This document shows positions 25,728 to 27,179 of a stretch of 64,000 bases of DNA, one piece after another. The DNA is from Methanolobus mangrovi (lineage in GTDB: Archaea; Halobacteriota; Methanosarcinia; Methanosarcinales; Methanosarcinaceae), in NCBI RefSeq assembly GCF_031312535.1, contig NZ_CP133594.1, positions 558,001 to 622,000 on the forward strand, read 5' to 3'. Position 1 is the stretch's first letter. Every line of letters starts with the position of its first letter. The notes under the pieces were generated by a model. The model did no database searches and had not been told where the DNA came from. It saw nothing but the letters and a program-made list of their open reading frames with translations. The translations under genes and the position numbers were made by a program.

Positions 25728-25828
25728 AGTATCACCTGAACGTACTATGTGTTTATTTATATATTAAAGCACTTGGTGTTAACGATTGTTGGTTTCCCTT
25801 CTGTTTATACATGACTCTAGCCATTTAT

Positions 25829-25857
25829 GGTGACTTTAATATGTTTTCTACGGAGCC
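25829..25857 (-). repeat. Solo terminal repeat of a small mobile element
   Basis: Read on the minus strand, GGCTCCGTAGAAAACATATT matches the ends of the element at 52845-52975 and the solo end at 7215. No second end was found nearby. Confidence 0.35.
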
Positions 25858-25980
25858 ATTAAATAATTGATTTCAAACTTCAGTCTTCAAATAACCCTTA
25901 TCCAATGCAGTCTATACAGTAAACGTTTTGTGAATGACTGATATATTGGTATAGGGTAGATATTTGCACTAAAGTATTGT

Positions 25981-26733
25981 TCACATAATAACTATAAGGT
26001 CTTTACCTGTTCTGCATATATCTCCTCGACGCTCTAGCTCTACCATAAGTTCGTCAACTTCTATTTTACTGATATCATGCATTTGTGTTGTAGTATAAAC
26101 GTCTTCTAAGAGAAGCCGATGACTATTTTTTGAATCCTTCATCTCTTTTAATATCTCAATCATTTTTACTTTATTGGGATTAGCTTTTCTAATTTCTGGC
26201 TTTTTAAGAGAAGGCTTTAGTTCATTTTGAGTAACTTTCTCAATTGCAGTCGCATACAGGATATAGTCTCCTATTTTAGTCCTGCTGTTTGTTTTGCCTT
26301 TTAATGAAGTCTTTACTTCTCCGGTAATAGAAACTATAGCATCCATAATTGGCTCTGTTACAAGGTCTCCTTCAATCTCCACGAATAATGAATTATTTGT
26401 ATCCACAGAACCATAATTATCAAGAATCTTTCCAATACGTATCCACCTATAATCAATAATGTCTGATTCATCGATTAAAAGTTCAAAACAGTTACTTCTA
26501 CCACATGTCTCATTTGAACATATTTGTGGTGTCAATAATTCTTTGCTTGTGGATTGAGGAATCTCAATATTTGTTTCGCATGCTTCACATCTAAAAATAG
26601 CTTTTTTAATTTTTGGTTGAATATTCCCTACTTCTACAATTTGTCCTTTCACAGTAATTGATTTAGACAAATGTTTAGCTTGAATTTCACCGATAGGAAC
26701 TTCTATTAATTCTTGCACAGTTTCGCCCATCAT
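25981..26733 (-). CDS. MCM-like protein lacking the AAA+ motor
   Basis: About 250 residues. The N-terminal 160 residues match the DNA-binding domain of archaeal MCM helicases: helical domain A, then the OB-fold with the pattern QPKIKKAIFRCEAC, a zinc ribbon (C-x2-C, later C-x4-C and another C), ELL-x-DESDIIDYRWIRI and a late GEV strand. The last 60 residues (KVKMIEILKEMKDSKN to the end) have the form of the MCM C-terminal winged helix. The AAA+ ATPase in between, about 350 residues with GDPG-type Walker A, is absent; the two parts are joined by a short linker. It could bind single-stranded DNA or modulate the true MCM. The start is the ATG at 26733; a TTG at 26748 is also open. Confidence 0.7.
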   Translation of the reverse strand: MMGETVQELIEVPIGEIQAKHLSKSITVKGQIVEVGNIQPKIKKAIFRCEACETNIEIPQSTSKELLTPQICSNETCGRSNCFELLIDESDIIDYRWIRIGKILDNYGSVDTNNSLFVEIEGDLVTEPIMDAIVSITGEVKTSLKGKTNSRTKIGDYILYATAIEKVTQNELKPSLKKPEIRKANPNKVKMIEILKEMKDSKNSHRLLLEDVYTTTQMHDISKIEVDELMVELERRGDICRTGKDLIVIM

Positions 26734-26748
26734 ATCACAAAGCAACAA

Positions 26749-27179
26749 TAGTTAGTATGAATAATAAAAGTTCCGAAGGTCAATTAATTGTTTATGGGTT
26801 GCTGTTCTATATCATACAAGTTAATCCTGAATAGGAAAAGGGCATATTCAGATATGTTAAAATAAACCTGATGGAGCAAGGATATATGGCAGGCGGTGAA
26901 GTCCATATTCCCAACCTAATGGACTTACCAGGCTACCATTATCATCAGGGATGCATCAAATGACTTCGAAGACAAGCTTGAATCGTTTTATTCAGGAGAA
27001 ATTTAGTTGTCCGGTGGACAGATACAGAAAATATATCTCAATGAATGAACTAAGCAAGTTCACAATTATGCTGCCTGAAGATTATTGACATACCTTATGT
27101 TTTTTGTTAGCATTTAGAAATATGCTTAGTAATTTCCATATCATATACTTTATATTGTTGATGTTCAATAGTCCTATTG
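26749..27179. other. Intergenic region with gene debris
   Basis: About 430 bases. It contains short in-frame pieces (for example IIRDASNDFEDKLESFYSGE near 26937-27005, and a 15-codon MNELSKFTIMLPEDY near 27042-27088) that look like remains of a decayed gene, but no intact frame. A TATA element (TTTATATTG, 27149-27157) serves the cation-efflux gene. Confidence 0.35.

Follow-up and report, generated by a model that had tools for sequence, protein, structure and literature searches.

Domain architecture of the short MCM-like protein

The window, i.e. the whole 64,000-nucleotide stretch of Methanolobus mangrovi DNA analysed here, encodes a short MCM-like protein of ~250 aa on its reverse strand (25984..26733, (-)), which was delimited by its open frame and by family alignments and is followed by a stop codon at 25981-25983 (-). 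The frame 25981-26748(-) contains no internal stop, and both of its ends are intact in one frame, as originally predicted. The listed start is the TTG at 26748; judging from the sequence, translation more likely begins at one of the ATG codons at 26733 and 26730. The encoded protein comprises an MCM OB fold (subdomain C) with an inserted zinc ribbon (subdomain B) at 26320..26688 (-) and an MCM-type winged helix at 25984..26187 (-), and the ribbon itself, which has the pattern CX2C...CX4C, occupies 26503..26589 (-). The analyses below confirmed that the OB fold/zinc ribbon of MCM is fused directly to the MCM winged helix in this protein, with no motor.

The Pfam MCM_OB family matched residues 16-138 of the 250-aa form (E=1.3e-15) and residues 21-143 of the longer (TTG) form (E=1.4e-15, above the cut-off), and the best PDB sequence match was 1ltl, the N-domain of the M. 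thermautotrophicus MCM (E=4.6e-16). The four zinc cysteines (C49, C52, C72, and C77 in the numbering of the 250-aa form) are invariant in one of the family alignments and align with the ligands of the host MCM, and a profile of the OB region of the short family matched the full-MCM profile at 7e-36. The AlphaFold model of the whole short protein is moderate in quality (pLDDT 68); its top Foldseek matches were MCM N-domains (E about 1e-12), and 1ltl, 4pof, and 4ywl were among the top structure matches. Structure alignment gave a Z of 14.8 to 4pog over 152 residues, but the OB folds of asparaginyl-tRNA synthetases were also aligned near Z 14 over ~94 residues, so that specificity comes from the sequence evidence and not from the OB fold by itself. 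The predicted MCM N-terminal domain with a zinc ribbon is therefore present as far as the OB fold and ribbon are concerned, but its helical subdomain A is missing: no MCM_N Pfam match was obtained for the window protein, which starts at the OB fold, so that only subdomains B and C of the N-tier are present.

A Pfam search with the single window protein detected no winged-helix match. Residues 188-253 of the longer form matched the C-termini of four full-length MCMs (2e-4 to 6e-4), and the winged-helix profile of the short family matched the full-MCM profile at its last ~66 columns (E=5.4e-15). The C-terminal 68 residues modelled alone yielded a confident model (pLDDT 89.9), for which 2ma3, the MthMCM C-terminus, was the top Foldseek match (E 8.7e-3), followed by the MCM8 winged helix (E 0.02). 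For E-values of 0.009 and 0.02, it is the ranking and not the E-value that counts; together with the stronger profile comparison, it bears out the prediction of an MCM-type winged helix joined directly to the N-terminal module.

Between the OB fold and the winged helix, columns 284-659 of the full-MCM profile, corresponding to the AAA+ core and the lid, are unmatched, and both ends are colinear with the profile. Neither PF00493 (AAA+) nor PF17855 (lid) matched any of the 12 short-family members tested, and the Walker A pattern was found in none of the 12 members scanned, in agreement with the predicted lack of an AAA+ region. Since nothing lies between the OB/zinc module and the winged helix, the short protein should be unable to hydrolyse ATP or unwind DNA.

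Inserted DNA, family distribution, and a candidate partner

A complete host MCM of 696 aa with a P-loop is encoded elsewhere in the genome (about G000:C1:1341638-1343728) and shares 29% identity with the short protein over residues 16-173. The short gene lies in a ~1.33-kb segment of inserted DNA (25813..27139, without strand). The site was compared in 10 relatives, taken from 26 other genomes of the genus, and was empty in all 10: the flanks corresponding to window positions 25812 and 27140 are joined, with 4-9 unaligned bases in nine relatives and ~80 in one, from which it follows that the window carries ~1.33 kb of extra DNA. The G+C content of the insert is 33% (38% for the window), and the GC3 of the short MCM gene (0.23) is the second lowest among the 36 frames of >=200 aa (mean 0.364, s.d. 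0.055). At the insert ends, no target-site duplication, no terminal inverted repeat, and no convincing inverted or direct repeats were identified.

The insert also contains a gene remnant (26809..27084, (+)), which corresponds to the 3' part of a gene of 119-140 aa. It shares ~75% identity with a small gene whose intact form occupies the equivalent site of G004, a genome outside the ten empty-site relatives; no short MCM was found there. G004 has the small gene at another place as well, close to a ParB-like protein (a reading based on sequence), and G025 has it near ParA. The empty sites and a remnant whose relatives have ParA/ParB-like neighbours suggest that DNA of plasmid type entered here, at a site used more than once. 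Among the other short copies, that of G058 lies on an 18.8-kb contig with a ParA-type gene and that of G016 near a tyrosine integrase gene. The short gene of the window probably came with a plasmid-like mobile element. Searches of viral contigs revealed no relative of the window protein, the Methanococcoides alignment, the G016 copy, the G058 copy, or the partner alignment (see below), and a scan of a genome-contig collection with the window protein yielded no relative. Named phage records contained no short copy, and plasmid records contained only other MCM forms. In genomes of the same genus, the small gene sits in a two-gene cassette (69 aa + 119-140 aa; L185:2986-3555, L186:2087-2657, and L183:1501-2071), which has ParA or ParB-like neighbours in two places and, in G004, occupies the site that holds the insert in the window.

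A search for the same short protein in related genomes, as the original prediction had advised, identified at least 13 short loci in at least 11 of the 237 genomes of the class. The short form is present in 2 of 27 genomes of the genus (G000, the window genome, and G016) and in at least 10 of 185 genomes of the order, to which the class search adds G164. Seven of the short-form genomes are Methanococcoides, including M. vulcani SLH 33, M. seepicolus LLY, and two MAGs, and G058 represents another family of the order. In a phylum search of 392 genomes sampled from the larger group (E<=1e-30), no further short form was found among the matches listed; the thresholds of the class and phylum searches were strict, and more divergent short forms may be missed. 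The window copy is single in its genome and is 22-28% identical to the other family members, and the same OB-WH domain junction recurs across the family.

A tree combining 10 short proteins that bear the ribbon with the N-tiers of 25 full-length MCMs puts the window protein, the G016 protein, and six Methanococcoides sequences, i.e. 8 of the 10 zinc-bearing members, in one branch (96/88) apart from the full-length MCMs, pairs the G058 protein with a second MCM of a related genome, and leaves the G164 protein unplaced. A single origin of the short forms was not rejected by the AU test (p=0.06 with 10 rows and 0.52 without G058), and tree evidence on this point is weak because terminal branches reach 3.9 changes per site. 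The original prediction had considered a deletion derivative, but the short gene is not a local derivative of the resident MCM, given the empty site in 10/10 relatives, the intact full-length MCM elsewhere, the patchy family, and the separate branch. Neither a lack of similarity to the MCM OB and WH domains nor a full-length copy at the same place in relatives was found. The second MCM with which the G058 protein groups is a divergent protein of 665 aa with the P-loop variant GDPGTAKT (G054, L141:1723-3720). MCM frames of 1064-1073 aa are present in G030, G134, and G031 (L006, L050, and L017), and their length suggests inteins in the chromosomal MCM.

A gene of ~410 aa, here called the partner, is located directly after the short gene in G016 and tail to tail with that in G164, where the partner copy is broken. 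The partner family was detected in 31 of the 185 genomes of the order, including the window genome (G000:C1:1116959-1118176; L146:1489-2742:-; ~418 aa). Its C-terminal 150 residues matched the MCM lid and WH in a local profile comparison (E 2.5e-4, with a probability of only 43%), and comparison in global mode gave no match to MCM. MCMs accounted for 9 of the 10 matches listed in a PDB profile search (best 4.3e-4), an MCM_lid match was obtained for 6 of 25 partner members at E<=0.1 (best 5.1e-5), and Walker A was found in none of the 25, so that the partner is a candidate second motor-less MCM derivative. Only one of the 30 partner loci inspected adjoins a short MCM (G016), and only 2 of the 13 short loci are adjoined by a partner (G016 and G164); other partner copies adjoin an Orc1/Cdc6 gene in G026 (Cdc6_C 1.1e-13) and ParA in G175. 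Both genes are present together in 5 of the 11 short-form genomes (p=0.02, kinship ignored). The link between the partner and the short MCM is suggestive only.

Selection and residue loss in the short family

In Methanococcoides, the short gene occupies two conserved chromosomal positions, one of which is shared by the copies of G128, G129, and G130. All 36 pairs of the nine Methanococcoides copies have dN/dS values below 1 (0.135-0.599), and synonymous changes exceeded non-synonymous changes in the six pairs tested (p 0.018 to 7.6e-7; site counts approximated). The Methanococcoides copies are thus under purifying selection, and the proposal that the gene is retained holds for this genus, in which selection was measurable; the window copy lies outside this comparison.

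The copies of G028, G126, and G131 have no zinc ribbon, and OB strand 2 runs straight into the strand after the ribbon. These three copies share two flanking genes with G132 (L069), whose copy there keeps the ribbon, and the common flanks make this look like ribbon loss at one locus. They end slightly early, and dN/dS among them is 0.19-0.32. The zinc-less copies are found at L036:4675-5178, L075:4725-5228, and L076:4927-5430.

Residues were compared between 13 short proteins and 47 full-length MCMs. The glutamine of the allosteric communication loop (ACL; Q181 of the host MCM) is kept in at least 95% of the full-length MCMs and in none of the 13 short proteins, and R114, A116, T117, G190, and Q192 (host numbering) are likewise lost in all 13. 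The 10 short proteins with a ribbon retain all four zinc cysteines, and E182 persists in every short protein (12 of 13) but that of the window, which has K. According to PMC4619765, the MtMCM numbering of which was matched to host numbering via the QExxE pattern, the ACL glutamine makes contact with the h2i hairpin of AAA+, and the residue after it, a glutamate, forms a bridge to the next subunit. In full-length MCM, the ACL glutamine couples the N-tier to the motor, and this tier-coupling loop is lost in the short family. With Q181 lost but the zinc cysteines and E182 kept, the link to the motor has gone, whereas scaffold features stay.

PMC4619765 also describes R124 of Pfu as an ssDNA-binding residue. 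The host MCM has K115 at this MSSB position, and G058 likewise has K; E is found in the proteins of the window and of G016, N in that of G164, and T or I in the Methanococcoides copies. With E here, it is doubtful that the window protein binds ssDNA in the manner of MCM, and any such binding may be weak, which counts against reading the window protein as a simple ssDNA binder.

Possible functions and relation to known systems

Because some copies are under selection, parts of the helicase seem to have been put to a new, motor-free use. As to its nature, the most likely reading, at about even odds, is that the short protein is an ATP-independent DNA/MCM-binding adaptor of mobile-element origin, for which we infer the binding, the partners, and the role. 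The role in DNA binding or in controlling replication that was proposed originally is plausible. Plasmid-like mobile DNA would bring in a motor-less MCM derivative, which some lineages would keep as a resident gene. The OB/zinc module, which is ring-forming and DNA-contacting in MCM, may oligomerise via the OB fold and/or the adaptor may pair with MCM-type or Orc1/Cdc6-type proteins, while the winged helix would touch duplex DNA or a partner. Such an adaptor could direct or restrain the host replication helicase at the origin of the element or of the host. In favour of this reading are the colinear OB/zinc module and winged helix, both of MCM type, the loss of the motor-linking residues alongside the retained zinc cysteines, the purifying selection and the two conserved positions in Methanococcoides, the signs of mobility, and the adjoining partner in G016 and G164. 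Against it stand the altered MSSB position, the K in place of E182 in the window protein, the restriction of the selection data to Methanococcoides, the presence of a partner beside only 2 of the 13 short loci, and the searches of viral contigs and named phage records that found no short copy.

The protein might instead be a dominant-negative decoy, whose OB/zinc module slots into the N-tier of the host MCM ring or covers it as a cap and thereby blocks host replication or rival elements. The MCM N-tier alone forms rings (1ltl, 4pof, and 4ywl, all among the top structure matches), the reported intersubunit bridge E182 is kept in 12/13, and the host has its own full-length MCM. However, identity to that MCM is only 29%, the RKAT strand and the ACL are lost in 13/13, the ribbon has gone in three species, and a strong inhibitor is not expected in a gene that has long been resident in Methanococcoides, which together make a decoy unlikely.

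An OB fold with a zinc ribbon and a winged helix is also the logic of RPA, and the zinc-less Methanococcoides alleles leave a plain OB + WH, as would suit an RPA-like small ssDNA-binding protein for repair or element replication. This role is distinctly improbable, since the sequence evidence leads entirely to MCM and none to RPA, and the MSSB residues are not retained; no RPA family appeared when the window protein was compared with Pfam up to E=10 (filters drop weak matches).

A wider scheme would have mobile elements split MCM into OB-zinc-WH and ~415-aa lid-WH proteins, which with Orc1/Cdc6 would form an ATP-independent initiator or adaptor capturing the host MCM and whose pieces would later be domesticated by hosts; it is speculative, and we give it a low probability.

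That the gene is a functionless, decaying leftover of a mobile-element MCM is very improbable. The insert holds a gene remnant beside it, the distribution is patchy, and the window copy has no close relative and is outside the dN/dS comparison, but the window frame is open with all zinc ligands intact, and 13 open short frames, the recurrent domain junction, and dN/dS <1 in 36/36 Methanococcoides pairs argue against decay.

Least probable of all is a regulator of transcription or replication timing that acts through duplex binding by the winged helix, like the non-initiator Orc1-2 in the damage response: the winged-helix model is confident, and Orc1-2 offers a precedent of a replication protein turned regulator (PMC9738581), but the conserved OB/zinc module would be superfluous and there is no operon or regulon support. 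The open frame, the recurrent junction, and the full MCM elsewhere rule out a full MCM broken artefactually by a frameshift or a stop, and the 13 loci in 11 genomes rule out an assembly error; an RPA origin is disfavoured, all similarity being to MCM.

In the usual view, MCM is a motor to which accessory domains are attached, and a family that lacks the motor, keeps both DNA-binding ends, and survives zinc-ribbon loss is a natural dissection of how these ends act by themselves. The family illustrates how archaeal replication proteins may be reshaped by mobile elements, and a compact, testable protein is available in a named strain, Methanococcoides vulcani SLH 33. A literature search, which covered few subscription papers, found no mention of an OB-zinc-WH form without subdomain A, of residence in Methanococcoides, or of zinc-ribbon loss.

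The archaeal MCM helicase (e.g. that of M. thermautotrophicus, 1LTL) has, like the short protein, a colinear OB fold, C4 zinc ribbon, and C-terminal WH, but its AAA+ core, lid, subdomain A, and ACL glutamine are all absent from the short protein. On plasmids, Halorussus has a 244-aa MCM N-tier protein (L179:2716-3447), found on seven plasmid records at 66-100% identity and often annotated as hypothetical, in which MCM_OB is present and no winged-helix match was detected. This protein is likewise an MCM N-tier without ATPase and is plasmid-borne, but its OB fold is preceded by ~100 residues and followed by little more, whereas in the methanogen short proteins the OB fold is N-terminal and a WH is present. 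A plasmid MCM of Halosegnis marinus (L178:2713-4606) is split into 373-aa and 254-aa frames and is apparently a broken full-length MCM. Krupovic et al., as cited in PMC4158269, reportedly dealt with the MCM copies of archaeal mobile elements in 2010. The mobile-element MCMs discussed in PMC3984812 have their mobile association in common with the short gene, but are counted there as helicases, whereas the short protein is motor-less. Haloarchaeal N-terminal-only MCMs, given in PMC3972481 as four of 39 proteins (312-315 aa), are again MCM N-tiers without ATPase, from which the short protein differs by having the WH; these and the Halorussus form make motor-less MCM relatives an already known kind. 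Orc1-2, a non-initiator Orc1/Cdc6 paralogue (PMC9738581), provides a functional analogy as a replication protein reused as a regulator, but it keeps its AAA+ domain, unlike the short protein, and is not an MCM.
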